Positions 1 to 36,885 of a stretch of 64,000 nt of DNA are shown here, piece by piece. Position 1 is the stretch's first letter; the number at the start of each line of letters is the position of its first letter. The position numbers and the translations under genes are program-made. Below the pieces are notes generated by a model. The model was not told the DNA's origin, did not search any database, and saw only the letters and a program-made list of their open reading frames with translations. Origin of the DNA: Beverwykella pulmonaria (Eukaryota; Ascomycota; Dothideomycetes; Pleosporales; Melanommataceae); the NCBI GenBank assembly GCA_001599595.1, contig BCHH01000001.1, positions 5,027,818-5,091,817 of the forward strand, given 5' to 3'.

Positions 1-2670
1 GGCCACCCTGTGTGGAATCACCCTGTGTTCTAGCATAAGGACTATGCAACATTTACACAGAAGGTTAAGGCATTACTATATGCAGAGGCAGCACTAAGCG
101 GGCTGTTAGCCCTATACTAGGCAATCCTCTTGCTAGCAGATTACCCACAGGTTCTAGATACGCGGAATGATTAAAGGGCCAAGGAGCTCAATGGCTCTAT
201 CAAGAACCTGCTTGAGCTTCAACTGCTCACCTCTGGCAGCCTGGTATTTAGGCTAGAGGTACCTTAGATAGCTGGTCACCCACCGTCGCGATTGCTATCA
301 AATATCGCCTATAGCAGCTACGCCTTTGCTCAGGCCATACCACTCGCATGCACGCTTACCCCTCTGCCAGCAGCACTTTAGTGCGATTAGCAGCATCTGC
401 TGCTAGAGCCACCACCAAAGTATTGCATGTGCTGTGGTGCGAGGACAGTAGAGGATCTCTAGCGCGAATCGACAGTAGGCCTGTAAGGCTGGCCTTCTAT
501 TAGTGAGCTAGATAGACGATGGGGTAGCAGGTGGAGGACAGGCCGCCAGAGTAAGTTGCAATGGTACTATCCACGCCTTAAAACTATCGAAGAGATCAGG
601 CGTATAGCCCTGGCGCAGAGAAGAAGTGAGGGGGAAGCCATGGGGCAGGTGAGCCACCGCAGCAGTAGTAGAGGTGCTCACTAGACTAACTTCGCAAGCA
701 CCTTAGGTCTGCTCAGAAGAAGGGTAGTAGAAATTAGGGCAGAACCTCCTACATAGTCTTTGTATTAAATGTATACTTTCTAGATGGTGATTACGTACCT
801 AGTAGCTCTAATTTTACACAGCACCTTAGCAGCGCCTTAGTAGCCTAGTAGCTCCTAGAGTTTAAAAAACCAAGTTATTTCTGCTTGTGGCGGCGTTGAT
901 ATACCTTATGGGGGGTTGGACAATGAATAGTTGACAAGGGGCTTTTTTTTGAAGTAAACGGTTACCGGTAGCTTGTCTGGGTGGTTCGCTTATCAAATAC
1001 GTTATATGCGATTTTATTATTCGCGAAACCAAGGAGGTTAATTTAATGCATCTAGAAAAGCGTTTAGCAATTTATGATCAGACGATCGCGTGAAAATAGT
1101 CATATTATGGTGGCATGTCGTGTTAGGTGGCTCTGGAAGACAATTTATCATCACCTTTTGATGGCCCGATCATTGCCCGTAGCAGATTTAATTTTACACA
1201 TCTGAGATTCGTATCTCGACCAAAGTAGTATCTTCGATTAATTCGCTAGATACTGTGCTCAAAATTCAGATGAGGGACAGGTTCGTGTTAACAAATTAAG
1301 GCCTTATAAGGGACAATCTTTTGCGCATAGCAACTAACACATGTCTCCCTAAGCGGTACTTAAACCTTACTCCAAATAAATGCAATTCTTATCACCATAC
1401 TTGAAGTAAACAGATAGTTCTCGCATTATGCATCTCGTGTAATTGGCATGTTTAGCCTTCACTTCTAGGAAGGACAGGAATTGCCACAAGAACAATGCCT
1501 GGTGATCGCCGATTTGATTCGGATGAGCTGGAGCACGTGACCGAGGAAATCGTTGTGAAACAAAGTTTACGACAGTAACTCTATGTCCGTAGACTTTTGA
1601 CTCCGTTTTTGGAGGGTTTTTTTCGCCGCATTTGGAGTCACTTGCCAAGTTCACCCCCTGCAACTCCGTCAGCTTTTCCTCAGCTTTTCTTGCCTAGTTC
1701 TTTTCATGCCTCCTAAAATTCATAGCAACTGAACGAGCCCAAAAAATGGACCCACATCCATCCCTGTCGGTATATTATCAATGCTTCCTAAAAAGTGTCG
1801 CGCTCAAGGAGGCGCTAGACCGCATGGAAGCTCACCACCAAGCCGATATGGAGGCTTTGCGCTAATAATCCAGTGGTGATAGTGATCGCTTGCGCACCCG
1901 AGTATAGGTACCTTCGAGATACCCACTAAAATATCAAAGTTGATTAGCTAATAATTATAGTATGGTAGCATGACGAAGGTTCATGAGCGAAAGTGAGAGG
2001 GTGTTGCTTAGAGCTGCGACACTTCTCTCGCGTAAATTGCCATGGATGTTGGCACTACATCGCAGTATTCAAGAGACAAAGAGATACCAGCTTGTTCGAA
2101 GACATGTTTCGTCTATTCAGCATCTCAAGTACGAAAAGATTCTCTCCGGGGACTCTGGCTACTCTAATCCTCCACGGGTCTACTATCAGATTCATGTTCT
2201 GTGGGCGGCGAGCAGCTTTTGGGGGACAACAGTCGAAGCTCGTGTCATCAAGTCGATCAAGTACCTCATTGGCTAACACAAGCGCGGACCCGAGTCCGCA
2301 GTCTTGGCAGCGAAACCCCTCGACTTTGCAGGAGCATTGTGCTCTCAACTATACTCCTACAACTAGTGTCACTATCCACCACAACAGCGTCAGACCACAA
2401 AGCTATATCGCTGTCTGACAATGGACCCTAGCAGCAATTCTACGCACGGACGGCGCAGTGCAGAAAAGGAACTTGAAATGACGACGGTTGCACTAAACCA
2501 GAGGGGCACACTGCTTTCGTTCTTGGTGAAGTGCGCACAAACCGATTATGACATTGGATTGGGTAGGTCTACCAAACTTCGTATGAATTTTGACACAAGG
2601 CTTACTTTAGATCGTGATTTGAGACCTTTCGCCTCTCCCGGCAAGCCCTGCCATCGAGCTCGCTGATGAA
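1..2670. other. TAG-rich non-coding stretch, no defensible gene
   Basis: No reading frame here resembles a protein family I know; the open frames are short and overlap on both strands. Roughly the first 850 bases are strikingly rich in TAG and CTA triplets while not being very AT-rich, and stops are frequent in every frame. This could be an old repeat altered by CpA-to-TpA mutation (the RIP pattern), but no element type can be named. Frames at 1983-2666 just upstream of the HET gene are probably leader or chance. Confidence 0.4.
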
Positions 2671-4902
2671 ATGGTAGCCAGGTGTCGGACGTTTCTGAAT
2701 ATTGCAATTCAAGCCGAGGAAAGCCAGAAGGATCCGAATCATGACCCGGGAACAACCGATTGCGGCGATGTTTATTCCCCACTCTCGCCTTACCTGGAGT
2801 GCCCGCTGGACCCCAAGGGAAATGAGATCCGTGTTCTGAAACTGCTCCCGGGTGAGTCGGACGATCCTTTGCATTGCGAACTCAAAACTTTGAGCTTGGG
2901 TCCAGACGCAAGATATGATGCTTTATCCTATGTGTGGGGGTCAACAATAGACAAGGCGGCAATTGAGGTCAACTCGACGGCTTTCCAGGTAACGAAGAAC
3001 TTAAGCACTGCTCTCCACTGCTTGCGTGACACAAAGCACCCTCGAAATATCTGGGTCGACGCAATTTGCATAGATCAATCCAACAAAGCGGAAAAGAGCA
3101 GCCAAGTCCGAATCATGGGCGATATTTACAGATTGGCTTCTCATGTATTGGTCTTCCTTGGCGAGGAAGATGAGCACTCGGACGTTCTTCTCGATTTCTT
3201 GGAAAACGGTGATGCCGCGATCGCGATTGAAAATGCCGATGACATGTTTGACGAGGAGAAAACCTCTCGGGCTTGGGAATATCTTGTGACCCATCGACCC
3301 TCGCTCGTTCAGGCCTTCATCCATACTGTATATCGCCCATGGTTCAGTCGGGCATGGATCATTCAAGAATATTGGTTAGCCTCTTCCGAACCGAAAATCT
3401 ATCTCGGTCGTCGTTACGTGTCAGCAAGCGTTTTTCTAAGCAGTCAATTTCACTTACTCGTCTCAACCGTACTATGTTCCCTCCCAGACATTGCTCAGCC
3501 GCTATCTGAATTGGCTCCAGATGTCGATTACTTCAACATAAAGTCTCGAGTATCGTCAGTCAGGTACGCGGTCAGCTTCGATATCGCTGTTCCCCGGTGG
3601 CCATCCCATTGGCTCACTCATCCTGGAATATATACGAGCGAATCTTCGGACCCACGAGACAAAATATACAGCCTGAATGGTCTTTTCGACCCAGTTGCAC
3701 GGAAGGTCCTGGAGCCGGACTACACGCTAAGCATTCAAGAGGTCTTCCTTCGTGCCACTGTCTGGTTCCTGGAATTTGACCAGCTGGTAGACAGTCCCTT
3801 TGTGCGTTTCGGACTGTTAAATGATCCACATTACCCGTCGTGGGTTCTGGACCTCCGTAAGACAATCCCACTGGATGTTACAGACATCATGGTCTCTCGG
3901 CATGATAATACTTTCGCGGACTACGATCCATATAACGGCCTTTGCATGGTCGTTCAGCGAGTTTTACACATCCAAGGTATTGAACTGGACACCATCGACC
4001 AAGTTTTCGACATGAACTATCCAGACGAATTCGCTTTCCACCACGCACTCTGGCACCTGGAGAAGAGCTTCCAGTCTCAGATATCATATACAGATTCGTC
4101 ACCACCTCCAGCTGTAGCCAAGGCTCTCGAAACGAAATCATATATCCTCGCGTGGGGTTTCAACCCTAATCTAACAATGGTCTCATACCTAATTCCAAGC
4201 GCAGTTTCCTACACAGTAAGCCTCGCAGAGTATCTGGAGACTATAGATGTGTTTAATGATGATCCGTATCTCTCAAGTTTGCCGGGAATCCAGGACCTTC
4301 TAGGCGCCCTTCTTTTCGATAGTGCAAAGCTTATGGAGGAACTCACCTCCACACAGGTGAATCACACCTATTTACGGTACAGCGACTTGAAGACTTCTCT
4401 TCTGGGCCCACATGGTGAGACCAGCGACGAGGCTTTGGCGGTGCTGGAAGACATCAGGGTGAATTTAATCCCAACAGTGTTCGATGAGACAAAATCTGCG
4501 AAGGTTATTCAGTGCTACGAGAAGCGCTTCGGAGAGGATTGCAGACAGGACCAACAAGACGCAGATAACACTGTTGATGGCCCCAAGACTGCCACTCAAG
4601 TAAATCGACATCAAGCGAACTATTGCCAGTCTGTTGTGAGACGTATTCGTTCCAGCATCTTCTTCCGCACAAAGTACGGCATTCCGGGCTTAGGGCCTGT
4701 GGGTGAAAATCGGTACCGGAAAGGAGATAGAGTTGTTTTGTTCAGGAATATGCCCGCGCCAATAGTAGTTCGGCCTTGTGAAGGGACCCCAGAGACGTAT
4801 CGATTCGTCGGGATAGCGATCGTCAGGGGGGTGATGGATGGGGAGTTGCACGAGTCATTGACGGAGGGGGTAGCGAAGCCCAGGATATTTAAGATACGGT
4901 AG
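2671..4902 (+). CDS. HET-domain (heterokaryon incompatibility) protein
   Basis: This is a single-exon frame of 743 residues beginning at an ATG. It carries the three blocks of the fungal HET domain in order: YDALSYVWG near residue 87, NIWVDAICIDQ followed by RIMGDIYRLASHVLVFLG near residues 125-170, and FSRAWIIQEYW near residue 225. In this family the domain triggers cell death or growth arrest when unlike cells fuse, usually acting in the cytoplasm and often with a polymorphic partner. The long C-terminal part (about residue 300 on) has no motif I can name, as is usual for this class. The gene stands alone, with more than 2 kb of apparently empty sequence on each side, typical of HET genes in accessory regions. 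The frame is open throughout. The domain is certain; which incompatibility system it serves cannot be told. Confidence 0.9.
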   Translation: MVARCRTFLNIAIQAEESQKDPNHDPGTTDCGDVYSPLSPYLECPLDPKGNEIRVLKLLPGESDDPLHCELKTLSLGPDARYDALSYVWGSTIDKAAIEVNSTAFQVTKNLSTALHCLRDTKHPRNIWVDAICIDQSNKAEKSSQVRIMGDIYRLASHVLVFLGEEDEHSDVLLDFLENGDAAIAIENADDMFDEEKTSRAWEYLVTHRPSLVQAFIHTVYRPWFSRAWIIQEYWLASSEPKIYLGRRYVSASVFLSSQFHLLVSTVLCSLPDIAQPLSELAPDVDYFNIKSRVSSVRYAVSFDIAVPRWPSHWLTHPGIYTSESSDPRDKIYSLNGLFDPVARKVLEPDYTLSIQEVFLRATVWFLEFDQLVDSPFVRFGLLNDPHYPSWVLDLRKTIPLDVTDIMVSRHDNTFADYDPYNGLCMVVQRVLHIQGIELDTIDQVFDMNYPDEFAFHHALWHLEKSFQSQISYTDSSPPPAVAKALETKSYILAWGFNPNLTMVSYLIPSAVSYTVSLAEYLETIDVFNDDPYLSSLPGIQDLLGALLFDSAKLMEELTSTQVNHTYLRYSDLKTSLLGPHGETSDEALAVLEDIRVNLIPTVFDETKSAKVIQCYEKRFGEDCRQDQQDADNTVDGPKTATQVNRHQANYCQSVVRRIRSSIFFRTKYGIPGLGPVGENRYRKGDRVVLFRNMPAPIVVRPCEGTPETYRFVGIAIVRGVMDGELHESLTEGVAKPRIFKIR

Positions 4903-15400: not shown

Positions 15401-18400
15401 CTACTCATCAAACTCAGCTTTCTCCAGGAGCGAACCGTTAAGAATCTTGCCCATGTGTGTCTTCTCGATACTATCGCAGTTCCGCCGGATTTTTGTCATC
15501 AAGACATACAAGAACCTCACTGGGCTCCTAGTGAAACTAGAGGAGTTACTGTTGATAATAAAGCCATCAGACGTTACTTCGACACCTTGCTCCTGTGGCT
15601 TCCAGGCTAGTCCTAAGAAGTTGCATATCGCAGTGTACTCTTTGAATGTGCTGAGATAAAGTTGCCCGGCGAAGAGATTTAGCTGGATGGTCAAATGATA
15701 CGGAATCGCAGAGGGATCGAAGGGCCCACCCTCGGTGAATAAGTCGAGAGAGTCTAATGCCCTGAACTGCAAGCTTGGACGCGGTAGGTAGACATGCAGA
15801 GTGACCTTTTTGTACTTTCTGAGGCTTGGAAGGAGTTTCCGTGCTTCGAAAGGACTGATTATAATCATATGCTTGATCCCTACACCGTTATTAGTGCAGG
15901 TAAGTATCCATTGTACGGGACGTAAGTAGTTGTCTGAGACGTATTTCATTCCCGTAGGTCGCACGGTTCGCGAGAAGTCAGCAGTCACCAGCAAATCGCT
16001 GGGGAACTGGGAGGGATTTAGGTACTCGAAAGCAGTAGTGTTATGGAGCGTCCGGAATGCAGGAAGTAATGCCTGGGAGTGCTCCACAATCATCCCGGTG
16101 GTGACGAGAGTAAGCAAATCGTCGTGGAGGGAATGCTTAAAAGCTTGTGCACGAGCAGGTTTCTCTACCTCCCGCTCTTCCTCGATCTCAGGCGATAATT
16201 CTCGCTCCTGCTCCTCTTCCAAAGCCGCTGAATCTGGATTTGAATTATTGAATTGGCGGCAGCGCTCGAGGATTCGGGCAACGCCCTCGTCTTGCACTTC
16301 CCAGTTAGATTGCTCACCGCGGGTGGTGCGAGGCCGGTAGCGGTGATCCAGACTCTGAGACTCGTCCTCTAGGAACTGTTTCGCCGTTTTATTTGATAAG
16401 ACTATACAGTCTTCTCTTTGGGCTGCTTCCCAAACTTTTCTTTGGCTTATATATCGACGGCCCTGCATTGCCCAGAGAGGCATGCTTCGACGGTGATCCA
16501 AAAAAGTCTCGGAGATCGACCAGCCAAGAACATCCGATACCGTAATTGAAGAGCTGTCAACGGCCCTTTTGAGCTGGAGTATCTTGGCTTGGATCTCATC
16601 TGGTATGCAGAACACAAGTGACTGGCCCTTTCCGAGTTTCCGCATCCTCATACATGCTATGAGAGCGTTAGCAACGCAAGATCTCTTTAACTTCAACTAC
16701 TTACCCTGGACAAGTCGGTCTTTGGTTAAATTTGCGCCTAAAGTGACTGCAGCGCGGTAATCGATTGGAAGTCGGAGGTCAGTGCCTCTTGTGTGAGCCT
16801 CGTCTAGAAAGATAAGACAGACACCTAGCTGATTTGCATGCGGAGACACCTGAAGAAGTTCAACCTGACCCTTTCTATCTATGACGGATAGCTCGTCGTT
16901 CTCGTTGAAGAACACTGCAGCCTTGGTTTGTTGTGTATCTTCCCACATGCCTAACCATTTCTCCGCAACTTGTTGGTTGCTGAACTCCAAGATCTGAGCA
17001 CCGACATCTAAAATCACTCGCACCACGGGACGCATAGCTTTGACAGTCTGGAGCAGCATCTCCGCGTGTGAGATTTGGCTCTTATTTTGCGATGAGGCGT
17101 TTTTCAACGACAATACCTGGACTGAGTTCTCGAGTTGTAAGATATATTTCAAGACAAGAGCGTTGGTATGCTTTTGTCGATCGAGGTCGAGATGATGGAC
17201 ATCCAGGGGAAGAAGATGGCGAGAATCAATAGTGCCACTAAATCCCGTTGTCGGTTTAGACTTCTTCTGCCCGAGATCCCATCCAGAAGCTGAGATCTTG
17301 TGGGGAAATTCCTTCATAGCCTTTTGGAAGACATGGTGGGAAAGGAAGTAGTCGATCGCGCCCTTTGAGAAATGAAGTGTTGGGAAAACCTCTTCGATGC
17401 ATTGGAGACGATCCTTGAGATTAATGCTGGATAGGTGTCTAAAAATTTCGGGTAGATCCGGTGCCGACTCGATCCAGATCTGATACTCAACATCCGCCTG
17501 GTCAGCTTTGAGAAGGAGTTCGAAACTCGTAAAGAGGTCTTCGTCGCTTAGTCCCCCATAATAGTAACTCAGGGACGTCAGCATAATGACCACATCGGGG
17601 TGGCTGAACTCTGACCTGGGGGAAGGACAGTCTTTGGCACGGAAGGGTACGGCAAGCTTTGTTGGAGGCAGTCTCAGTAGATCTACCCCATAGTTAACCC
17701 GCCATCGCTTCGAACTAAGGACGAAATCCAAGACGCCGCCGGCAAGCAACCCGCGGATAAGAAGTAGAGGACCCCTGATAGAGTCGTTCCAGACTCCTGA
17801 ATCGCTGTCCTCAATTTGCGCAACTTCTTTCAGGGTCAGAGTCGGTTGTGTGATGTAGTGTAGAATGGCTTGTCGCATTTCAGCACATTGATGGGTTACG
17901 GGGAAGCCGACGAGACCATATTCGCAGATATATTCTGCAACCATTATCCGAAGGCGAGTTCCTGCTTCTGGCCGTAATATTCGCGTCCTTGGGAAACGAC
18001 CACGCCAGTTGTCCACTTCGATTGATTGCGTACCCATCTCTAGAGCGATGGCTGGTGCAAATCTGGCTACAAGATCAAGAATATGCTGAATCAGGATCCA
18101 ACGATCCGGGCTCAACTCTATTGGCTGTTGCAGGCCCATAGTGTAAATCAACTCGAACTTAACACTAAAGTTCTCATCACTCTCATCGATGATGTCTCGA
18201 GACTCAGTATCGAAGAAGTGCTGAATCTTCAATAGTGATTGATCCAGCAAATCATCGATGTTGAGAATATACTCGATTGCCATGAGCTTGAAGGACAGAA
18301 CGTGCTCAGGCTGGACAAGAAGGATGCCCCCGCTCTCCCTGCACTCTGTACACATTGCCAAAAGGCTCTCTACATCTGAAAGATTCAGCCGAAGAGAACG

Positions 18401-21400
18401 GGAAATGGGCATGTGGTAGATTCGGCGGCCGAGAAGGCCACCGAGCTTTGACACTAGCATCTGAAACATTTGCTTCGATTGAGGCCTTGCAACGAATACA
18501 CGAACCAAATTCTGTCCGTTTGCCAGCGTAGCCGCGACGGCCGGGACAATAAAAGTCGACTTGCCTTCGCCCATGTTCAACTGCATTACAGAATTGCGGC
18601 CAGATTCCGGAGAGAGCATGTGTTTGGCGATGTTGGCTTGCACTTCCCGCATCATCAGTCCACTTTCGACTTCTATTAAAAGCCACTCTGGGAATGCCAT
18701 TGGATCCCAATTCTGGTTGCCAACATTAACGAGCTCGTTGATCAAATCGGCGGATTTTGCGCTCGTCCGTATAAGACGCTCAGCACGCTGCAATAACCTG
18801 AGAGCCTTTGCATATCGAACGAGATAGTATTTCCAACTCTCAGACAGTGACTGCCAGCGCGAATGGGAAAGATACTGGAGGTAGAAATATGGAGAGATTC
18901 TAGGTACGTGCGAGACGGAGGCGGCGACTTCGAAACCCCGATTACTGGCTTGAACAAGGCCGTTGAAAAGAGTTTGAACCTGCTGCCTGCAGCAATCTAG
19001 ATGATTCTGTAAGAGCTTATCGGTATTCTTAGGATTTGAGAACACTAGTATAAGCCTCTGCGAGTCGCGATTGAGATGTGCGACACTGTCCTGCAAGTCT
19101 CTCAAGTATTCCCGTTCGTGACTAGCAGACACTCGACCCTCGAGCGTTGCCAAAAAATTTTGGACGCGAGCGCTGGAGTGCTCTTGCTCGGGGCTGCTCT
19201 CAACAAGCCAAGCCATGTTGTCTACGAAGCAGTCAGGAATCTGTGGAGGCGAGAGATTAAAGACGTCTTCATTATGGACATGGCGTTTTTGTATTCTAGT
19301 CTGAATTTCGCTATGATGGCAATCGTTCAGGTGTGTATCCAAGACCTGATAAGACTGCAAGCTCAATTCGCTTTCAATTTTGTTCAAGTAGTTGCGGAGC
19401 TGGAGATTCTGCCACCATACTTTCCATTTTGCTGCAATATTGGTCATGGAGGATTCGACGTTGATATAGATACTGATCTCCTCACTTCTTGGTGTTGTTG
19501 GAATTTTGCAAGCCCATTGATCCTTCAGTTTATGAATGAATATCTTCCTCACCTGTGCCTGATTGCTCTGATGTTCGCGCTTCCGTCTTGATCGTGTATT
19601 TTTCGCTGACTCTCTAGCCAAGGGAGTGAGTCTTGCTTCGGGGCATACATCAATTGAATTGAATTTGATCAATTCCGCCAAATCTCCAATATCGCTTCCT
19701 TGCTTGACATGAAAGATACTACTTTCAGGAGGTGCGATTCGTGCTAATGCGGGTATGCAGTAGAACGCAATGAGAGTCTCGACGAGTAACATATCCGCAT
19801 TGCGTGCAAATGCAGTCGTCGAAAGCCACATCATAAGGTGGTATTTGTTTTTCCAACCACCTTGTGACAGAAAAACGTGGGCTGGACACCATTTGCTGGC
19901 TAAATACGGCGCAGTGTTGCCCAGGAGATGCCCGCCGTATGGAGACTCACTCCACATCAGCACGATCTGTGGGCCGGGAATCGGCTCTTGCTTGCTGAGC
20001 TCTCTCCACAGGTGCCCACTAAGGTGCTTCAGAGACTGGTTGTGCAGGATTGGCTCCTTGTTGAGAATGGAACGCGCAACAACGAAAGTCCGCTGCGCTC
20101 GATCCGAGCGTTGGCCGCAATCGCGCTGCCTGTAGCAAACGTCGTGTTGGTCTGTATATTTTTCGGCGCCAAAACCAGAGACACGGAAAGTAGACGAACG
20201 AATCAAGTCACGCTCTAGTAAATGAAGTTTGGTCCAATCTAAGGAGGGATGGTCCACGAAATCAGGGTGCAACGGCTTAGACCTCGTCGCCTGTGAGAAA
20301 ATGTCTCTGACCTCCAAGTACAGCAGACCATGCTGGGACAGAAAACTGAGCTCGGCATCCCAGTGGATGGTCTGCATATCTTGCAGATGTTGAGGATAGA
20401 AGAGCCTTTTCGGCGCCAACTGAGCGATAAGCCCAAGGGTATTCAAATTATCTCGATCCAGTACATCGAAGGACCGAACGGCGGCCGAGGTTAGAATTGC
20501 GAGTGCTTGTTCGGTGCCGGTAATTCTGATCAAGGGATCAGGTAGGCAATAAGATGTCAAGCTGTGCAGATAGCAGAGGAAAAGCATGCTCTGCATGCTG
20601 CCGCTTCCAACAAGCCTGCCGAGTTGGTCATCGACGCAATAAGAATGAATCATTGAGATTCCTCGCTGAACAGAAACAGATACATGACCAAACTTGCGAC
20701 GGTATGAGATAATTCCCTCTGGAATCAACACCCGCCGTGAGCCGTTGGTGGACCTTAGCACGAGTTTGCTAGTTAGTCCAAAAAGGGTGCCAACATTTTG
20801 GCTGCTATCGATAAACGTGTCTTGAAACTGACGAGAAAAAACGGTATCGGAACCCGCGTTGAAAAAGAATCCAAGACGGAGTCTAGGTAGCTCAAGATCG
20901 ACCTGTTTGGACCCGGCATGACAAGAAATATGCACGAAGCGGCTGTCTTCAAGTGGGGAGAGAATATTTGCAATTATTCGACTGGTTTGACTGCCCATGC
21001 TGACCAGAGTTTCTTTCCCTTTACTGAGTATCCATCCGGCACCGTTGTTCGATAGTCGCCAGTATTGTGGATCCCGCGACCAAGGATCCTTGTTCGGAAC
21101 GAAGACGACAGCTTGCAGCTGATGATCGAACCAATGCACATAATCTTGGACAAAGATTTGGGGTACATTTTCTGATAGCACCCGCGAGGGAACCAAACTA
21201 TATGTGCAATCGTTTTTGATAGCGTGGAGCAACATGTCGTCTCTAGGCATGCCGAAGTGAACTAGATGACCGGCATATTTGGACCTTGACGAAAACTGGA
21301 ATCCAGGCTGACTGGAAGGCATAACCTGTATGTGGCTTCGACCAAACAAGGTGGGATACATGGCATGGTTTTCGTACTGTGCGGGCAATTTTGCAAGCGG

Positions 21401-24400
21401 TGCCCCGTTGACAAGTAATTCAGCCGTCAAAAGATTGAAATGGACGGGAAAAGAATCGCGATCGCCATCACTGGCGCTTGAACTTTGGAGCCAATGTTGA
21501 TGGGGTTCTGGAAGCTGTTGCCATGGTCGGCCGGGCTTATAGTCGGCCCAAAACTCATTTATGGTGAGATTCAAGCAGGAGTTGAAGAGATTTGCAATTT
21601 GATGAGCTAGCTCTGGACATGCTTTGTACATGAGTTGTCTCCATCGTGCTAGGAAAATGCCTATAGGCGACGAAATAGTGGGGTCGATTGATAAACAGTG
21701 CTCTTGAATGGTAATGGAGCACTGAAGGAAGATTGAAGCCTCCGACGTCGAACATAGGATGTTTTTGAGATGCTCGCGGTCGACTCCAAAACTGCTCATG
21801 CAAATTAAGGCCACTTCGACCGCGCGGGCAGCAAATTCAGATCGTTGGGTGTCGTCAGTGCAGCTTTGTACTCTGGTCCGGAGCTTCGTAACCCAACCGA
21901 AAAGAAGATAACGGCAAGACGCCAGGTAGGCCAAGCAGTCATAATGAGTGCTAGGAAATGGGCTCAAGGCCAGCAGACGTGCTGCAAGGCAGATGAATGC
22001 AGCAAGACACTGGAACGATTCCCAGTTCTCCCCAATTCTCCGTTTAGCCTCACAAAGTTGATGGAGAAGAGTAGCAGAGAAACGCTCATTGGTGAGAACC
22101 TGGTGACTTGCTCGAGAGAGTGACATATTATCTGGACCCAACTGTTGAGAAATCTGGAGCAGGAGAAGTGTTGTATCAACCTTCGTAAAATCTAGTGAAG
22201 GGACGGCTAGCTGGCTGAGAATATTTTGCCATTGGATTTCATAACCAAGAGGAAGCAGAGCAAATGCTTTGAACTCATCCAAAGATAATCCATCTGGGCA
22301 TTCGGACAGGCTCGCAATGACTTCGTTGGGTTCTGGCCCATTCGGCTCGTTTGGGGTCCTCCAGAGAAACTTCTGTAACGGCTTCGAGCGAATTGGAAGC
22401 ACAAAGGTGCACTGCTCATGCAGCTGATCCGTAGCAATGAGCCGACTGGTCAATATTTCCGCCTTGAAGTCAAAATATTGGTATGACAATCCATTTGCCA
22501 GACAGACAAACGCTTGGGTGGTCGGAATCGAAACGAAGTTTCGATGGGTCACAGCATTGGGCTTCGTTTGAGATCGGATCCCAACATGTTCGATGTTTGC
22601 TTGATAGAGATACCGAATACCGGGATCTCTTTGGAGAGTATATTCTGATCCAGCAGCCATTTCTACCTCATACTCGTAGCATAAAACAGTTCGAAGCATG
22701 TAATGGGTAACGTCGCGCCACGCACCGAAATCAGGCGGCACGGTGAGCTCGAAAACTGTCGCCTTTGCTTTGTTGCATTCTCTGGGAACTGGCCATTCAT
22801 GCACAGAAATTGTCATGCTTTTCGCCTGTTTAAGGTAGCCGCATTTCTTGCAGTTGGAACTATGCTGAATTTCCTCGTAGGGTCTCCAATTGATATCGTA
22901 CCGGGTAACCTCCACGTATTCGCAGCAACTATTGTCGTAACGTTCCATGAGTTCTCGATGAGATTGATTTAATCGATCGAGCTCTTGAATTTTTTCATTC
23001 CTCTGCTTTTCTGCTTTCTCCTCGACCTCAGTAAGAAGTTGCTGGTGCTGAGGTGACTGATTAAAATACTGAACAGCGAAGGAGCTCCAGTGGCCAAAGT
23101 CGCGAAAAGGACTGACAAAAGTCTTGTTGATATTGGTAGCGCGGGATTTTATATATGACTCAACCTTTGAAATACGGCTCAATTGTGATTTTAGTGGTAG
23201 AAGGAGTGACCAGAGCAGACTTGGAGCAATCTCGTGGCTGTACTTCTTCAGTAGATCATAATGACGACAAGCGACTTTGTCACAAGCAACCCATAAATCC
23301 ATAATAGTGAGCACCATTATAGACAATGCTTCTGGATTTCCTCGGTACGCGACCTTAGCGCCATGGTGATAGGCTTGGATCAAGTCTTTAAGTGCCACAC
23401 AGGTGTTCTCTGCATCGATATGATGCTTCAACCAAGTATCAAGATAGAGCTCAACCCACGTCTCGAGTGCGGCCAAACCGAAAGAATGATGCAAGGAGTC
23501 GAGAGCCTATAGGTTGTTAGCATTGGTTGTTTCTACCCTGGGTTTATGCTTACCAAGTGGGTGAAACGAGGTAGATAACCTGGATCGAAGCTGGGGAACT
23601 GTCCCGTCGCTTTGAACCTACAGTTCTCCTTGAATTTTGAAGGGCTTTGCAACTGGTGGAGGAATTGATCTAGGTGTGGAAGCTCGTGCAAAACGTTCTG
23701 TGGTGGGTTGATTGCACGCAGCGTTGAGAGATCGACAGGCGGACAAGAGTTGGCCATCACTGACTCCCAACGAGAGTTGATGTGAGAATGCGCCTTGGTC
23801 ATGGCGTTCCATACACTGTTGAACCACAATTCCTCACTTTGATCCCCAAGCTTTAGCAGGCGCTGAGAGAGCTTAGCGTTCATCGCATAGATAACATCGC
23901 TCTCGAGGCAGGGGTGAGTGAGGGCTAGCTTTAAGATGCGTGACATGAAGAAAACCATGAATGACTTGTACGGGCTTTTCAAGGGATCCGCCGAGAGTCG
24001 AGAGAAAGTGAGCTGCAACGCCACCCGAAGCAGCAACCATGTTAGAGACCGCCGCCATGGGCTTTTAGCATCCTTCCACAACACCTCTTCTCGGGTGTTC
24101 TTTCTAATGGAGGTAGTACCCACGGGGTGCCCAACAGCTCGCAGGAAACTCACTAAATGTTCAGTGACAACATGCGGCATAGCCGTATCGCGAGTTTCGC
24201 TCTGCTCTTGACCAGCTTTTTTCACCTTTGGCTGCATCTCTTCAATCTGTTCTGTACTCATTTTGGAAACTGTTTGCGACAGCGTGACTTGAAATCCCTT
24301 GTCAGAGAACTCTTCGAGCGGAACAAATACCACAAAGGCCGGAAACGATCTTTGCAACCGACCCTTGGTCGAGACGATAGATTTATTGTCCGGGGATAGC

Positions 24401-24856
24401 TCGAAGACTTCAAAAAAGACCCCATTCTGGTCTCTGTGGACAATGATACCCGCGTTCTGGGCGCCGACACGTAACGCCATGATATTTGCATCTACTTAAG
24501 TCAGCTGCGCGCGGGAGAGTGGACAAGGGAAACGTGCCATCTTTTGAAAATTTAGCCAGAATTTCTTCTAGTCGCGCTTGAATAACATTTCCAGACCCAT
24601 CGTGAACGACTCGAAAATTCTTGAGCATGGACATGACGGAATCCATGGCGAAGTTACAACCTTTTAGATTACTAAACTCCTGCAAGGATTCCAGAACCAT
24701 ATCTATCAGTATACGATCTAACCGAGGAACAAAGTCATCCTTTTGTGGCAATTTAGGAGGAAGAAAGACATGATGGATCATGTAGAGCGCTGGCTCGATG
24801 TCTAGATGGCGGTCAACTGGCTGCCAACCTATGGTGTCATTCTGTGACCGTGTCAT
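15401..24856 (-). CDS. Giant DUF6606/DUF3638/DUF3645 protein (annotated in databases as ubiquitinyl hydrolase-like)
   Basis: About 3,100 residues in four exons: 24856 to about 24500, about 24490-23554, 23506-16705 and 16656-15401. The last two introns (23507-23553 and 16657-16704) are clean GT-AG and keep the frame. An N-terminal DUF6606-type block carries VFLPPKLPQ, AQNAGIIVHR and FELSPDNKSIVSTKGRLQRS. DUF3638 has LNMGEGKSTFIVPAVAA (near 18570), a Walker-A-like loop. DUF3645 has LPPTKLAVPFRAKD and VVIMLTSLSYYYGG. Further on come LIFLDEAHTRGTDLRLP (near 16800) and DRLVQACMRMRKLGKGQS across the last intron, which look like DEAH and arginine-finger motifs of an SF2/SecA-like motor. The ubiquitin-hydrolase label is a database habit I cannot verify from motifs. 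Oddly, exons 1 and 2 cannot be joined in frame by any GT-AG pair near 24480-24540, so a one-base lesion or sequence error is likely there. Confidence 0.8.
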
Positions 24857-27107: not shown

Positions 27108-28426
27108 CTGCTCAACCACGGTTGTAACGCTGGAAAACTATGAGTAATATAGGTGCAAGCAGAAATTGAAGAACTAAACTGATTGATTGTAGTTTCTGAA
27201 AACTCTGATTATCAAGTGGTTCAACCTGAAAAAGCAACTACTGAAGTTGCTTTTGCGCCGACACACTCCTACATCGTCACAAAAACAGTTTAGAATTGAA
27301 GGTTATCTTTGAGGCTTCTATTCAGATCCAAGTATCGCTATTTTCATCTGTGGCTTAGGGGCTGTGAACGGCAAATTCATCTGGCGTGTAAAACGGTACC
27401 CTCACACCGCAAAAATTGCTAACTGTTATATCCTACCAGAAACTTCGCTCTATAACCTAGACTAGGGGAGGAGGGGCCGAAATCGCTGCAATTGGCACCC
27501 AATTTTATGGAAATTTTCCATATCAATTTGATGACGTGACACGACCTCAACCAGTTTCTGATCCTTGCTAGAATTCACAACTTTGCGAACTAAGTGAGAG
27601 GCCTTCGAGCTGCAGAGCATAGTAACCGTTCGTTAAAATATCCAGCGCATAGTATATTTTGATATCATATACCCATACAGCAGGTCGTGGCTAAAGGCCA
27701 TGGAGTGGGGCAACCCGCGGAGTGGAAATCCGTCATATCTAGCGCGACTAAATGAGAAGAAGACATCTAATGTTTCGCTAAGCCTCTACCACAATGTAAG
27801 AGTGACCCGTCATTCCCAGAGTTCTGGGTACTGTCGGTGTCGATGTTAGAATAGTAGGGTTTGTCGTGGAAGACTTAAAAGTCGATGCCATCATTTGAGA
27901 AGAATGACAACTATCGTGTTCATGTTTTTAGCCTTAAATATTTTGAGGACTAGCTAATGAGGAGTGAGGTTTCCATTAGATTACGGAGGACTTTGCAGAT
28001 GTAGCTTAGGAATAGTTGAGTGCCGTTGTGGTTAAGAACAGGGTCCAAGCTAGTGCATTTCATTTTTGTATAGCATATGCATGGGCCGTGCTTGTCGTCC
28101 GAATTTGTTGGTGTCACAACGTGGTGTTACTATCAGTCAGACCATTTGATTGAAGGATATCCTTGGGAATGAGTAATTGAAGTTTCTAACGCACCTTTGG
28201 TCCAAAATTGCCCGCTCGTTTTGGCATCTCTATTTTATAATTTGATTTCGAGACATCCGTACCAAAGCTTTTCAATAGCGCAATATCAATCACGCATAAA
28301 CACACGTGTTGGTCAAAATTGGCCAGAAATAGTTTCTTCGTGTCTGCCTCCCACTCCATCCACTTGTACTCTTCTTTTATTTGTCCTTCTCCCTCCATTC
28401 TCTCAATCTCGCAGAGGTCGATATCC
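27108..28426. other. Intergenic upstream of the kinase/HAD/PRTase gene
   Basis: No gene is recognisable. The last 100 bases before 28427 are pyrimidine-rich, as in many fungal promoters and leaders. Confidence 0.4.
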
Positions 28427-30448
28427 ATGGACTCAGCCGATCAAGCCCAGTTGAGCCGGATCGTTTCCATCAAAACAATAGTTGTCGGTCTTTATGGCGT
28501 ACCGGGCTCTGGAAAGACTTTCCTCATCAAAAAAATGAAGCACGATCTCGGAGAAGAGCAGTTCATATTCTACGAAGGCTCTGAGGTGATTGACGCCCTC
28601 GTACCTGGCGGCCTTGATGCTTTTCAGAAGTTGGAAGAGCATGGAAAATACCACTGGCGACAGCTTGCCATTGACAAAGTTAGACAAGAGTGTGCAGGTA
28701 GCGGACGTGTTGGGGTTGTAGCTGGACATTTCATGTTCTGGCCTGAAGGGGAGGAAGCAGGCCACCCAATCTACACCGTCAACGACTTAAGCACATTCAC
28801 ACATATCCTTTACTTGGATATACCAGCTGAACTGGTCATCCAACGACGTCAAGCCGATTTGAAGCGGACTCGCCCGCCCGTATCAAGCAAACATCTGCTC
28901 AAGTGGCAGGTTACCGAAAAGACTGAGCTGCGCCGTCTCTGCCGCCAGAATAATATCTTGTTCTTTTTGATATCATCCCAGCACCACATAACTACCATTT
29001 CGACAATGTTACACCATTTTCAGCAGGATACAACTGAGTGTAACTTATCTCGTGCTGAAAAAAGGCTAGATGAGATCGTTCTGAAATCTGGCCAGGAGCT
29101 TGAGACGGTGTTGGTCATCGATGCGGATAAGACGCTGGCAACCGAAGACACCGGTACTTTGTTTTGGAAACTGGCTACCGACTATGAGCATGGACAGTCA
29201 ATGATGAATATATGCCCACTAAAAGCATTATTCAGTAGCCAGCTGGGGTACTCGGATACTGCGTTTCGCCAAGCTACATTGCTGTATGAGGAGATTGCCG
29301 ACGAGCAACAGTTTGATACAATCTGCGAGGCTGTGTCGTCTTCAGTAACGATTCATTCTGAGTTTGTATCACTTCTGCAACAAGTCGCTCAACATAATCA
29401 TGTCATGGCGGTGGTTGTCACTTGCGGACTCCGTCTTGTCTGGGAGAAGGTGCTCAAGCGCGTAGGGCTGTGTGAGACTGTAAGAGTTATTGGCGGGGGA
29501 CGCATCTCAGATGGCTTCGTTATCACTCCCAGTGTGAAAGCCATGTTGGTGGTGCGCTTGCGAGAAGCCCATCACTTATATGTTTGGGCTTTCGGAGACA
29601 GCGCTCTAGATTTGCCCATGATGAACGAGGCACATCAAGCTATCGTTGTTGTTGGCGAAGAACACACTCGAAGTAAGACCATGGACGCGGTCTTGTTAAA
29701 TGCCATTGATAATCAAGGACTTATGGCGCGTCAAGTCCTACTTCCCGGCAGAGCATCGCCACGTCTTGATACCACCAAACTTCCGCTCGCGCAATTCACG
29801 GAGCAAGAGTTCCTTGATTCTGTCATGTGTCGTCGCATACACCGGCTGCTTGAAACTGTACATTTTAATACTGCTAAACTCTTGATGACCCCGATGCGCG
29901 ATGCTAGCATGTCCGGGTCGGCTCTGAGAGAAACACATCGTCGAGTTGGCTGGTACCTTGCCATGACCTTCCTACCTGACATTATCGGTCTTGAGCAGCA
30001 TTCAATCCCACACGTTCAAGGTCATACCACAGATGGTCATCGGCTCCAGCACGAGGGTCAAACATCAATAGTAGCGCTGATGCGCGGTGGAGAAGCTATG
30101 GCTTTTGGAGTCAATGACGCTTTTCCGTTAGCCATGTTTGTTCATGCCAGCAAGCCTCACGATGTTAAACTCCATCATGTGCAAGGCCAGAGAACGGTAT
30201 TGCTAGTAGACTCGGTGGTAAACAGCGGTAAGACGGCGAGAGAGTTTATTCAGCACATTCGCCAGTTGCATGCCACTATTCGGATCGTGTTTTTTGCTGG
30301 TGTCATTCAAGCGGAGTCTGCTCTCATCCCTGACGCCAATCTAATCGTGGTCGCACTTCGCCGTTCCGACAACAAGTTCACTGGCAGTGGTACCACAGAT
30401 ACTGGCAATCGCCTTTTTAACACGACGCATTTGGATCGTGTTCAGTAG
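28427..30448 (+). CDS. Three-domain P-loop kinase / HAD phosphatase / uracil phosphoribosyltransferase-like protein
   Basis: A single exon of 673 residues. I chose the ATG at 28427 because the longer frame upstream crosses a pyrimidine-rich leader. Domain 1 is an AAA_33-type kinase fold with GVPGSGKT at residues 24-31. Domain 2 is a phosphoserine-phosphatase-like HAD with DADKT (D232 and D234) and GDSALD (D391 and D395), so its acid residues are intact. Domain 3 is a UPRTase-type fold with MRGGEAMAFG and a PRPP loop LLVDSVVNSGKT (D595). Such domains would respectively phosphorylate a small molecule or nucleic acid, remove a phosphate, and join a base to PRPP. The substrate is unknown, and combining all three suggests nucleotide salvage or repair. 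The gene converges on the AAA_28 gene with 173 bp between stop codons. All catalytic motifs look functional. Confidence 0.85.
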   Translation: MDSADQAQLSRIVSIKTIVVGLYGVPGSGKTFLIKKMKHDLGEEQFIFYEGSEVIDALVPGGLDAFQKLEEHGKYHWRQLAIDKVRQECAGSGRVGVVAGHFMFWPEGEEAGHPIYTVNDLSTFTHILYLDIPAELVIQRRQADLKRTRPPVSSKHLLKWQVTEKTELRRLCRQNNILFFLISSQHHITTISTMLHHFQQDTTECNLSRAEKRLDEIVLKSGQELETVLVIDADKTLATEDTGTLFWKLATDYEHGQSMMNICPLKALFSSQLGYSDTAFRQATLLYEEIADEQQFDTICEAVSSSVTIHSEFVSLLQQVAQHNHVMAVVVTCGLRLVWEKVLKRVGLCETVRVIGGGRISDGFVITPSVKAMLVVRLREAHHLYVWAFGDSALDLPMMNEAHQAIVVVGEEHTRSKTMDAVLLNAIDNQGLMARQVLLPGRASPRLDTTKLPLAQFTEQEFLDSVMCRRIHRLLETVHFNTAKLLMTPMRDASMSGSALRETHRRVGWYLAMTFLPDIIGLEQHSIPHVQGHTTDGHRLQHEGQTSIVALMRGGEAMAFGVNDAFPLAMFVHASKPHDVKLHHVQGQRTVLLVDSVVNSGKTAREFIQHIRQLHATIRIVFFAGVIQAESALIPDANLIVVALRRSDNKFTGSGTTDTGNRLFNTTHLDRVQ

Positions 30449-31573: not shown

Positions 31574-34500
31574 ATGGCATCCCCAAAACGTTTTAACACT
31601 CGTTTGCAAAATAGCATACTACCAGACGACAGCTCGTGGTCCTATACTATCCCGAACCTACCACCATCAGAAAAGACAAACCCGCTCAAACTAATCAAAT
31701 CAATCGCTGTCGTCTCGACACTGAGAGAACAGTGTATCAAGCTGCGTTTCGAGAATGCGCCGTCAAATCGGGTAACTTGGGCTGATCCCTTGCATCTCTT
31801 TTTGACGATCTCCTTTGCCCACTTTAGTTTACAACTGCCCGCAAAACACCCAGGAGAGAAGGCCCAACTAGCCCCAACGTCAGATTCTATGGAATACATA
31901 GCAAGGCTGCTAAAATCTGGCATTTTCCTTAACGGAATCCATTATCACTTCTACGGCCACAGTAACAGTCAACTAAGGTCTCGGTCTTGCATCATGTTTG
32001 CCGCATCAAAGGCAGCAATCGCCACTAAAGTAGAAGCAATGGGCGATTTTTCGAAGCTCAAGTCGGTTGGCAAGAAAGCTAAACGCATTGGGCAATTATT
32101 TTCAACCGCCGATATGGTCATGACTCTCGATCCGGAGCGCGTCCAAGACATTGATGATATTGAGCACAACAACTACGTCTTTACGGATGGATGTGGCCTC
32201 ATTGCTAGCGCCCTCGCCAAACAGTTAGCGAAGCAGCGAAACATCGCATACCGCAATATCCGGTATCTGCCCTCGGTGTACCAGATCCGATACCGTGGGT
32301 ATAAAGGTGTTTTGATGCTCTCCCCGATGCTGACGGGGGAGACGGCTGTGCAGTTTAGATCGTCGATGCGTAAATTCAACGATGTCAAAGACTGTTCATT
32401 CTCTGTTGTTGAGTACTCCAAGGTGAGTATCAGCCAAAGCATGTAATTTTTCGCACCTCAAATTTCGCTGATATTAGCATAGCCTTACTCGTTCGGGTTC
32501 CTCAACGATGAAATCGTGTTACTCTTGCACGCCTTGGGCATCACCAGAGAAACTCTTTTGAAGAAGCAATCCGATTTCTTAAATTTCCTCCAAGCGGTTT
32601 CTAACGGAGATATACGCCTAACCTTTCAATTTCTGTCGTTCATCAATCGCTTCGACCTCGCTGAGAAACTACTTCTCGAGGGGAATGGCGCCATCCATGG
32701 TACGGTTAAAGGCTTGGTTCAACACGAGTATTCAAGAATGGTTAATAGGCGCAACGAGCAGCGATGTAGAATCATGATCCCGAATTCACGCTTGCTGTTT
32801 GGAGTTTGCGATCCCTCTACGGCAGTAGGTATTGCAGCCAAGCTTCAGCCAGGAACCTGTTTCGTGCGAATCACAGACTGTGAGAGTGGTCAAGCTCGGA
32901 CCGTGGTAGACACAGAGGTTCTTGTGACTCGAAACCCTTGTCTACATCCAGGCGATCTCCAGAAGTTCCGAGCTGTCGACATTCCTGAATTCTCACATCT
33001 CGTAGACTGCATTGTTTTCCCGACGACTGGTGAGCGACCGAGCGCCGATCTCATGTCAGGAGGAGACCTGGATGGGGATAAGTTCATCGTGATATGGGAC
33101 TCCGAAATAATACCCAGGATAATATCCCAACCGGCCGTATACCCAGGTACAAAGGAGCAAATTTCATTTTCTATGATAAGCAACGACGATCGTGCAGACT
33201 ACTTTGCGAAGTACACAAATGCATCTGTCAGTTGCATCAAAAGCCTACACACGGAATGGGCGCGCGTGAAAGGTCCGATGAGTCCAGAGTGCCAGCAACT
33301 CAATCGATTATTCTCACTGGCTGTAGATGGCAACACCGTACCTATACCTACTACGCTTAAAGATCCGCCCGAGCCTTTGGCGGCAAACCCTCCATTCATC
33401 CTCGACGTTCTCCATTCTGCTGCAAAAGATACAATTGACGCGGCTACAAAGAACCAAATCCCGCCCTTGGATTTGCCCATTGATGCTATGGATTTACTCA
33501 TTAGCAGAGACTCTATTGCCGTAAACGAGTTCGACCTAGTTCAGCTCACTCTCCGATGGTGCAGGCGCAATGACCAAAGCTTCTTGGATTATGCTTGTTT
33601 CTTCAACTTCAGAGCCATGACTGACGAGCAGCAAAGATGGCTCCTTGGAGAGTTGCCGCCCACGAAATCTGCTCCGAGTGTTGTCAGAAACGGGCTGTTG
33701 CAGTCAAGCCTCATACTACCAGAGGAACTTCGTCGCTTCGGCCTTGACCATCATGGTATTCACTGGAAATGCGTCTTTAATTCATCCTCGGACCAAATGA
33801 GGCGGTTTATGAACAGCACCTGTCGGACCTTGGAGCTATTTCACAAGAAACTCATTTTATTCCGGCATGATGAACGCCTACTACTTGCCATCTATATTCC
33901 AAATAAGGTTCCAAAAGCAATCGAAACGTATGTTGGCTCTACTGTGCGAGTTTTTGCTCTACCACAGTCTCAAGGGGCGGATTCTGCACAGTATCGAGTC
34001 AAACCTACTACTTTTCACTACCGACTGTACTGTGATGAGTCCACTTTTCAACTATATGACAGAACGCGAGTGAATACTTTTATTTTCTTGACGCGAGGCC
34101 AAACGGATAAGTCATCTTTGCCCAAAAGCAGAAACAAGGGAGATCGACGAAGACGAAAGCAAACTACAATTGACGAGTCAATTAACTTTGATTGCAGGGC
34201 AAGCATTGCGCTTGATAAGATTAGTAAAGATATACAGACACATGTTGGGTCAATGAATAGGGCAGGGATCCTCGCTGCCGTGAGTATCAAGTTCCATGCT
34301 TCTAAAGACCCTGGAGCAGTAGGCTGACTCTCTCGTTATTTCCAGGAAACGTATGTGATCAGCAACCGCGATGTGCAGTCTATGGATATCTTAGATCAAT
34401 GGCTTCATTACGTTGACACTGAAGAAATACTTCCACTCTTCGAAAAAACTCGCAAAGACTATATCATAACTAAGCCAGGAATCGACTGGGACAATCCTAG

Positions 34501-36885
34501 CGTTTCGCAAATGGTGGTGGAAGTTGCAAGGGACAAGAACCTGTCCAGACTACAAACAATCAACTCTCTTAACGAAATCCAGCAGATTCTGGAGCTCCTC
34601 GAGTCCTGGAACGAGTATCCACATCTCCGAGCAGCTTATACCGAACTACTTAGCCTTGAGGCCAGCGGCAATTTTCTGGTCACTCAAGACAGCCCTCAAA
34701 GCCACTGTGCCAGCTCAGATCTTCCAACTTTGCTTATCCGTTTTCTTCAAAAGGCTCCTTACCTGATCTCTCTGTTCTTTCAATCACAGACTTGGACGCG
34801 TCAGAAAGGGTCTCTCCATGAGGTCTTTACCGCTCTTGGCCCAGTTCTCTTGAAGGAACTAGTCTTGGCCGCAAATAGCTTCCAGCATGCTATCTATCAG
34901 TCTTTTCTTCTTTTACTCCAGAACTTGCAACAGCTCTCCCTTCACAACTTCGCCGAGCTGGTCGAGCTTATTTCACTGACCATCTCCGATGCTGAACTGG
35001 CGATTGACCTATTGTTCGAGTGTCTCGAACCAGAAACCAGAAGACTGTTGGTCGGCAGCGCAATAGAAATCGAACAATTCACGAAGTGCTTTATGGGAAT
35101 TGCACTGAATCACATTGACTTGGTCTCTAGTGTTGAGAGGTCTGCTACGTCTCCAATCGAGCTAAAGTTACAGGGCATTAGTCAGGACGGCTATCAAATA
35201 GTCAAGGGTGTGCTCCGAATTGACACTCCTAGACCGGTTCAGGTTGGAGATCATATCCGAATGTGTCCGTCTCAACCGCCAAAAAATGCTCCTCTTCAAC
35301 AAATGAGTGCGGTGGATGCTATCGTTATCCAGTCAGATTTCGGCGCGGCTTCCTTTCGATGCCTGCATCGTTTGCCGTCCTCTGTAGAGGACTGTCTCTG
35401 GGAAATAACTAGCTGCACATCCTTTGTGACCTGTAAGACGATGTTTGATGCAGTTCACTGGTTTTATTCGCAGAAAATAAAGTGTTGCAAGCTGTATGCA
35501 ACACTCACGGGACTTGGCTCCAGTCAAATCCAGCTTCTGCAAAGAACACGGCCATTCAAACCCTATCCGGCGCTGAACAGTAGTCAGAACAAAGCACTTG
35601 AAGAATCACTGAGCAATAATTGCACATTCATTTGGGCGCCACCTGGTACAGGTAGAACACATACCATGGCCGTCATCTTAGATCAGATGCAAATCTACTT
35701 TGAACACATGAGGATTCTAGTAACGGCGCCCACGCATAGTGCGGTAGACAACATCCTAAGAGGATATATCGCACAGTGGCGCTCAAAAAGAAATTTAATG
35801 GCCCCATTACGGGTCTCTGCACATGTATGTCTCCTCCTCTCACATTCTAACTGCTGAGATCACTCATGTTCTACGACTAGCTTCACAAGGTCTCTTCAGA
35901 CCTCCAGGAATATACTTGCGACGCTATGGTTGGCAAAATTATTGAAGAGAGCGATCATGCTCGACAAGAAGCCAAAGTTCGTGTTCGCGACGCGCGGTTG
36001 ATATTCACCACTTGTACCGGTGCCGGGCTCGGCTTATTGCGTTATGAAAAATTTGATATCGTTCTCATCGACAAAGCTTCCCAACAGACTGAGCCCGAGA
36101 GCCTTATCCCTCTCACTAAAGGATGTCAGCGGGCAGTCTTTGTTGGCGATCATGCCCAATGCCGCGCCACAGTTCGGAAGCATGCAGTTATCGCCGACTT
36201 CGACATCTCTCTATTCGAAAGGCATTACAATATGCCTAATGTGCCTGGAGTCGCGAAGGTTATGCTTGACACCCAGTATAGAATGCATCCCGACATCTGC
36301 GCTTTCAATTCGAGGGAATTCTACAACAACGCGCTCAAATCCGCAGAGGTCAACGCGACATTAATCTTGCCTCCATCCAAGTTTCCGTGGCATAGAAACA
36401 GACATATGGTCTTCCTACAGTGCTCCGCTCCTGAAGACCTTGGTCACCAATCGAAGTCCAATCAGGGCCAAGTGCAACTCTGTCAGGTGGTTTATAACTT
36501 GCTCCAAGTTCCAGTAACTACAGATCAAAGCAAACAGTTGGAACTAACAACTAAGCCAGCGGACATCGTCATTGTAACGCCCTATACACGACAAAAACAC
36601 TTTCTCAAACTTGCCATCCCGAGATCTGAAGTCTGCTTGATTGACGAGTATCCAGGTCGGAAGGCTGAAATTGTGATTTTCGTCAGCGTACGATGCAACG
36701 CCCATTTCGACATTGGTTGTCTCCAGGACAAACGGCTCTTGAATGTGGCTATGACGCGAGCCAAATTTGGTATCATCTTCATAGGCGATGAACTGACACT
36801 GACTGGCATGTCGGAGAGTAATAATGTGGAAAGCAAGGCGATTTGGGCACGTCTTTTAAAGAGTTGTGTGCAGGTGAAACTGTAG
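31574..36885 (+). CDS. RNA-dependent RNA polymerase fused to an SF1 (Upf1-like) helicase
   Basis: Exons are 31574-32422, 32483-34279, 34346-35824 and 35881-36885. All three introns (56-66 bp) are GT-AG and phase 0, giving 1,709 residues. The first half is a cellular RdRP: FLNGIHYHFYGHSNSQLR, VFTDGCGLIA, VLVTRNPCLHPGDL and catalytic SGGDLDGDKF (D478, D480, D482). The last ~430 residues are an SF1 helicase: APPGTGRTHT, APTHSAVDNIL, VLIDKASQQTEPE, LDTQYRMHPDI and LLNVAMTRAKFG. Cellular RdRPs make double-stranded RNA for silencing, and fungal Hrr1/SAD-3 helicases assist them in trans. Here the Walker A lysine is Arg (R1319), the DEAA-box Glu is Lys (K1440), and motif V lacks its QG. ATP hydrolysis is therefore probably lost while the polymerase looks active. 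The ~400-residue N-terminal region of larger RdRPs is absent. Confidence 0.9.

Follow-up and report, generated by a model that had tools for sequence, protein, structure and literature searches.

Gene Structure and Reading Frame

The window analyzed here is a stretch of 64,000 nucleotides (nt) from the Dothideomycete Beverwykella pulmonaria (contig BCHH01000001.1, positions 5,027,818 to 5,091,817), and at 31574–36885 of this window lies a gene in which an RNA-dependent RNA polymerase (RdRP) is followed by a C-terminal superfamily 1 (SF1) helicase. Spliced together, its four exons on the + strand form an open frame of 5,130 nt that contains no internal stop and encodes 1,709 amino acids (aa). 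All exon lengths are divisible by three, and hence the three small GT-AG introns are in phase 0. A homologue search returned 231 proteins at E ≤ 0.001, of which the best 120 were listed; homologue counts given here refer to these 120. They include the 1,710-aa proteins of Coleophoma cylindrospora and C. crateriformis, which are 73% and 72% identical to the window protein over 100% of the query. In the following, the lineage denotes the window protein and these two Coleophoma proteins. The gene is composed of the following parts:

31574..32422, + strand: exon 1, aa 1-283, start of the RdRP; open frame with the phase-0 donor GTGAGT, N-terminus collinear with both Coleophoma proteins
32423..32482, + strand: intron 1, 60 nt, phase 0, GTGAGT...GCATAG; frame restored into the RdRP
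32483..34279, + strand: exon 2, aa 284-882, RdRP core with the DLDGD codons at 33065-33079; matches to Pfam RdRP and to RDR2 and QDE-1 in the PDB
34280..34345, + strand: intron 2, 66 nt, phase 0, GTGAGT...TTCCAG
34346..35824, + strand: exon 3, aa 883-1375, helical linker domain, 1B-like beta barrel and the first part of RecA1 including motif I
35654-35656, + strand: codon of R1319 in motif I (APPGTGRT, exon 3), from sequence
35825..35880, + strand: intron 3, 56 nt, phase 0, GTATGT...GACTAG, with a CTAAC branch-like site
35881..36885, + strand: exon 4, aa 1376-1709, remainder of RecA1 (motifs II, III) and RecA2 (motifs IV-VI); matches to Pfam AAA_11/AAA_12 and to Upf1 in the PDB (E 8.9e-36)
36073-36075, + strand: codon of K1440 in motif II (DKAS, exon 4), from sequence
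36883-36885, + strand: stop codon, from sequence

Pfam assigns aa 74-588 to RdRP, aa 1483-1679 to AAA_12 and two stretches to AAA_11, the best of them at aa 1404-1473. The alignment of the window protein with the Coleophoma proteins over aa 60-860, which spans intron 1, contains 1-2 gap columns in 802. An earlier note on this DNA had proposed one polypeptide at these coordinates, three phase-0 GT-AG introns and an intact DLDGD motif (D478/D480/D482); the stop-free frame with its collinear homologues, the exon lengths and the position of the motif in the joined translation bear out all three proposals. Alternatively, the two halves might be separate proteins and the fusion an artefact of the gene model, as 11 of the 120 listed database models could suggest, which end without AAA_12. 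However, eight of the ten short models that were inspected end right after the residues preceding the third intron of the window gene, and six of these eight read on as V-S or V-G, matching read-through of the GT donor. Thus, intron 3 is independently supported, and these models together with the full-length collinear Coleophoma proteins give the join support beyond this assembly. Moreover, according to the match table RdRP and AAA_12 occur together in 109 of the 120 homologues, including the functionally studied FGSG_09076. Two separate proteins at this locus are therefore extremely unlikely.

The Fused Layout Is Shared With FgRdRp5

The earlier note knew of no described protein of this layout. 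Such a layout had already been published in 2015, however: FgRdRp5 (FGSG_09076) of Fusarium graminearum carries a DEAD-like helicase and an AAA domain at its C-terminus (excerpts of PMC4515635). The same architecture occurs in the 109 homologues mentioned above, which are spread across Pezizomycotina among the listed proteins. FgRdRp5 (1,721 aa) is collinear with the window protein, aligns with the entire query at 40% identity and has an intact DxDxD. It differs in the helicase, where it carries GPPGTGKT and DEAS compared to APPGTGRT and DKAS in the window. Like FgRdRp5, the window protein combines a PF05183 RdRP domain containing DxDGD with a C-terminal AAA_11/AAA_12 helicase in a single protein of about 1,700 aa, and its helicase half groups with 11 other fused proteins in a single clade (support 99/100). 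Intact helicase Walker A and B motifs, absent from the window protein, form no part of the published description in its accessible portions. On these sequence features, we assign the window gene to the FgRdRp5 family, whose members combine a silencing RdRP with an Upf1-like SF1 helicase at the C-terminus. Each half also lies inside the family in its own family tree, although these trees contain no unfused RdRP as outgroup.

According to the available sections of PMC11237814 (2024), FgRdRp5 occupies its own RdRP branch and has a share in the biogenesis of exonic small interfering RNAs (siRNAs); its deletion affects exonic siRNAs and reduces ascospore discharge. In part of PMC6764512, FGSG_09076 is listed beside SAD1 and credited with roles in antiviral defence. 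FgRdRp5 is placed nearer to Arabidopsis RDR2 (PMC4870495, in part), and our sequence search with FgRdRp5 agrees (RDR2 206 bits, QDE-1 70 bits). An amphioxus RdRP candidate, Branchiostoma BL02069, also combines RdRP and AAA_12 in one predicted protein (excerpts of PMC6396948), but it is an animal protein and is likened here by its published domain layout alone. The accessible portions of PMC6572790 and PMC4290597 describe no such fusion. In the open-licence PMC literature, we found no description of a helicase-dead form of the fusion and no functional studies of the layout beyond F. graminearum.

Class of the Helicase Half

By sequence, ZNFX1 is not the closest SF1 helicase of the window protein. 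Exon 4 scores 127 bits with Upf1 and 71 bits with ZNFX1, and for FgRdRp5 the ranking is Upf1, Smubp2, Sen1, Dna2 and ZNFX1 (183 vs. 100 bits for Upf1 and ZNFX1). The combination of a silencing-type RdRP with an Upf1-class SF1 helicase, as put forward in the earlier note, is thus upheld by the top score of Upf1. Upf1/NAM7 is the closest solved helicase by sequence, and the model of the window protein shows a 1B-like barrel ahead of RecA1. Nevertheless, the window protein differs from Upf1 proper in that Pfam finds neither the N-terminal CH domain (UPF1_Zn_bind) nor UPF1_1B_dom, both of which are present in the Upf1 encoded elsewhere in the same genome (L010), and in that its helicase lacks catalytic residues.

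Structural comparison was based on an AlphaFold2 model of exon 3 only (mean predicted local distance difference test score 87), in which a helical linker domain (approximately aa 931-1144) is followed by a beta barrel (approximately aa 1147-1242) and the start of RecA1. Matches to Sen1/SETX and Upf1 cover approximately model residues 200-493, and Sen1/SETX scores as well as Upf1 for this exon. The helical linker domain is well folded in the model except for two short stretches; the search with the exon 3 model, in which this domain was not folded separately, returned no convincing structural match for it alone. The linker domain (34490-35130), situated between RdRP and helicase, is fast-evolving, with 45, 34, 32, and 24% identity to four proteins outside the lineage.

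The earlier note further read the fusion as a Rosetta-stone link to Hrr1/SAD-3. In this case, the fused helicase would be a displaced Hrr1/SAD-3 orthologue and the fusion would record the RdRP-Hrr1 partnership. Hrr1, SAD-3 and ZNFX1 are likewise SF1 helicases acting in silencing, Hrr1 together with an RdRP (PMC9276528 and PMC5384783, both in part), but they are separate proteins and belong to another SF1 class by sequence score. Hrr1 is referred to as the ZNFX-1 orthologue in the accessible part of PMC9276528, whereas the fused helicases score higher with Upf1, and the genome of the window encodes separate ZNFX1-class helicases. Furthermore, the fused proteins form one clade outside the ZNFX1 clade in an SF1 tree in which several long branches were flagged. 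The proposed link is hence not sustained, and descent of the fused helicase from Hrr1/SAD-3 is very unlikely. The SF1 tree does not settle the sister class of the fused clade, and a deeper sister relation of the whole clade to ZNFX1 may exist.

Loss of ATPase-Site Residues in the Helicase

Helicase motifs I to VI can be recognized in the window protein, as the earlier note had stated, but near-invariant residues are changed in motifs I, II, III, and V, and in motif VI an arginine is replaced by leucine at position 1661. We aligned the window protein with the 120 listed homologues, leaving 118 proteins for comparison with the lineage. The Walker-A lysine (1319) is replaced by R in the window, by T in C. 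cylindrospora and by R in C. crateriformis, while the other homologues have K in all 117 proteins with a residue at this site (one gap). The Walker-B glutamate (1440) is replaced by lysine in all three lineage members, and it is kept in 107 of the 108 other homologues with a residue (one T; ten gaps). Changes of this kind in Walker A and Walker B are generally known to abolish hydrolysis in SF1 enzymes. D478, D480, and D482 of the RdRP are intact in all three.

The loss extends beyond these two sites. The other homologues are at least 97% uniform in 101 columns of the helicase; of these, 14 are changed in the window, 18 in C. cylindrospora and 17 in C. crateriformis, compared to a median of zero in 100 other homologues. 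The largest values in this baseline are 26, 9, and 6; the first two stem from P0005, whose motifs IV-VI are garbled, and P0079, which departs at the motif VI arginine, and both are probably faulty gene models. Of 140 equally uniform columns in the RdRP, the window departs at only 4, C. cylindrospora at 3 and C. crateriformis at 6 (110 other homologues: median 1, largest 10). Given this imbalance, the loss is centred on the helicase. Ten of the helicase columns are altered in every member of the lineage. Further sites differ within the lineage: both Coleophoma proteins lack the motif VI arginine R1668 and keep the motif V glutamine, whereas the window protein has lost the glutamine (Q1633).

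The helicase of the lineage is probably dead as an ATPase. Conversely, it might still hydrolyze ATP if arginine took the place of the Walker-A lysine and another acid served as catalytic base; the retained glycine-threonine frame of motif I, D1439, Q1468, R1509, and, in the window, R1668 would be compatible with residual activity. This is improbable, since in three of three proteins the catalytic base has undergone a charge reversal (E to K), and one of them has threonine instead of the Walker-A lysine. It is very probable that the RdRP half functions as a polymerase, and we consider it fairly probable that the protein is an FgRdRp5-family RdRP whose helicase has become, in the window and Coleophoma lineage, a non-motor module (pseudohelicase) beside this polymerase. 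The probable pseudohelicase, which had escaped the earlier note, is the new point, the layout itself being known.

Retention or Decay of the Helicase Half

The helicase half might merely be decaying, i.e., its ATPase is lost, it has no function, and it is carried along as loss of the C-terminus has yet to occur or harms folding of the RdRP. Two features speak for decay. Further sites have been lost separately (Q1633 of motif V in the window; R1668 of motif VI in Coleophoma), and the stem branch of the lineage is long in the helicase tree (0.68) relative to the RdRP tree (0.33), a ratio of 2.05 compared to 0.96-1.39 in five other clades, although the stem figures are rough, as the sister group of the lineage is unequally resolved in the two trees. 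On the other hand, the helicase half is full length and free of stops, with 3-5 gap columns in 402-404 relative to the Coleophoma proteins. Window and Coleophoma are 72% identical in the helicase half and 76% in the RdRP half. Since the common ancestor of the lineage, the ratio of helicase to RdRP distances, taken from separate trees of each half, has been 1.29, 1.42, and 1.58, within the range of 27 other pairs of similar distance (0.85-1.77, median 1.24). By these distances, the pace of the helicase half compared with that of the RdRP half is no higher within the lineage than in other fungi, and decay is unlikely.

Several observations nevertheless weigh against a maintained, motorless module. 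The long helicase stem branch fits a burst of relaxed constraint. The argument from rates is built on protein distances among three sequences and on two trees with different search settings. Eight of the ten shared changed columns lie in named motifs compared to 52 of 101 overall, which is not significant (p 0.056), and the window protein retains the motif VI arginine R1668. The simplest history that would accommodate these sequence data is a burst upon loss of the motor followed by ordinary constraint. It is possible, and we suggest it tentatively, that the pseudohelicase has been maintained by selection: after a burst of change in which the motor was lost, the fold would have become fixed as an RNA clamp or docking module that needs no ATP, and in this form the gene would have passed between Dothideomycetes and Coleophoma.

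Proposed Working of the Protein

The RdRP half would copy aberrant or exonic single-stranded RNA into double-stranded RNA for Dicer, for which the F. graminearum phenotype is the only family-level support. Most members of the family presumably use the helicase half as an RNA translocase, powered by ATP, to feed or clear the template, as judged from its class. In the window and Coleophoma lineage, the ATPase site appears to be lost and the helicase fold retained as a putative non-motor module, which would most likely serve as an RNA-binding or protein-docking platform holding the template at the polymerase without a power stroke. A lineage that keeps the RdRP without the ATP site of the helicase separates the two activities and suggests that the family can work motorless there. 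The residues lost are natural targets for tests in relatives whose motor is intact, and the authors of PMC11237814, in the part available, plan to explore whether the FgRdRp5 helicase has a role in exonic siRNAs or other mechanisms.

Phylogenetic Placement and Transfer

Family trees were computed for 38 of the 120 listed homologues and the window protein, a quick tree for the RdRP half and a careful tree for the helicase half. The class labels are those that we take the proteins to have; taxonomy was checked later for seven Leotiomycetes, Saxophila, Zymoseptoria, Massariosphaeria, and Monosporascus. The NCBI taxonomy assigns both Coleophoma species to the Leotiomycetes. In both halves, the window and Coleophoma proteins fall among Dothideomycetes, with support of 99 in the RdRP tree and of 98/94 and 100/97 in the helicase tree. 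Grouping them with five other Leotiomycetes was rejected (log-likelihood lower by 186, approximately unbiased test p-AU 4e-47). Their join with Mycosphaerellales-type proteins has support of 72 in the RdRP tree and 98/94 in the helicase tree, and a join with Pleosporales-type proteins is disfavoured (p-AU 0.02).

Because both halves place the window protein and the Leotiomycete Coleophoma proteins among Dothideomycetes, these trees make it likely that the gene moved across classes, between a Dothideomycete lineage and Coleophoma. Ancient duplication followed by losses could be invoked instead but is less likely, transfer being the likelier reading. For the genome of the window itself, we examined the best 120 of 244 matches to its SAD-1-like RdRP; many of them are unnamed, and those with names look like Pleosporales. 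Among these, Amniculicola, Lojkania, and Massariosphaeria were checked, and the other named relatives are presumably Pleosporales as well. If the Dothideomycete/Pleosporales placement of the genome holds, the window's own fused copy may have been acquired too, since the fused gene is not placed where Pleosporales-type relatives predict.

Both trees also place a Monosporascus protein (P0003, Sordariomycetes) inside this group of Dothideomycetes; transfer may thus have occurred more than once, or the genome may be mislabelled. A separate ZNFX1-class helicase (L016) has its nearest named match, among the best 120 of 2,639, in the Eurotiomycete Exophiala spinifera (70%), compared to 58% for the Dothideomycete Ascochyta rabiei. 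Carriage by a Starship-type element was considered and rejected: of the 11 genomic matches to DUF3435, which we take to mark such elements, a single one lies on this contig (at 1.47 Mb) and none in the window.

Genome Setting and Neighbouring Genes

The genome contains further parts of an RNA interference machinery, namely Dicer_dimer at two places (two Dicers), at least two Argonautes and at least four RdRP loci. A second, motor-competent fused copy was not found in a six-frame search, the counts of which are lower bounds: among at least four RdRP loci and at least 18 AAA_12 matches, only those of the window lie together. On another contig (C6:2414400-2424300, L019), a ZNFX1-class helicase gene is located about 0.9 kb downstream of an Argonaute gene in the same orientation, the two being separate genes. 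By eye, this helicase contains a later NF-X1-like and AAA-like stretch, in which Pfam gives no matches.

The window is located 127-191 kb from the end of its contig (C1). Close to the fused gene, 28241-30448 is a single open frame with P-loop (AAA_17), HAD and uracil phosphoribosyltransferase domains. A HET-domain (heterokaryon incompatibility) protein is encoded at 2623-4902, and on the minus strand 16697-24495 holds large open frames with DUF6606, DUF3638, and DUF3645, which are probably one gene.

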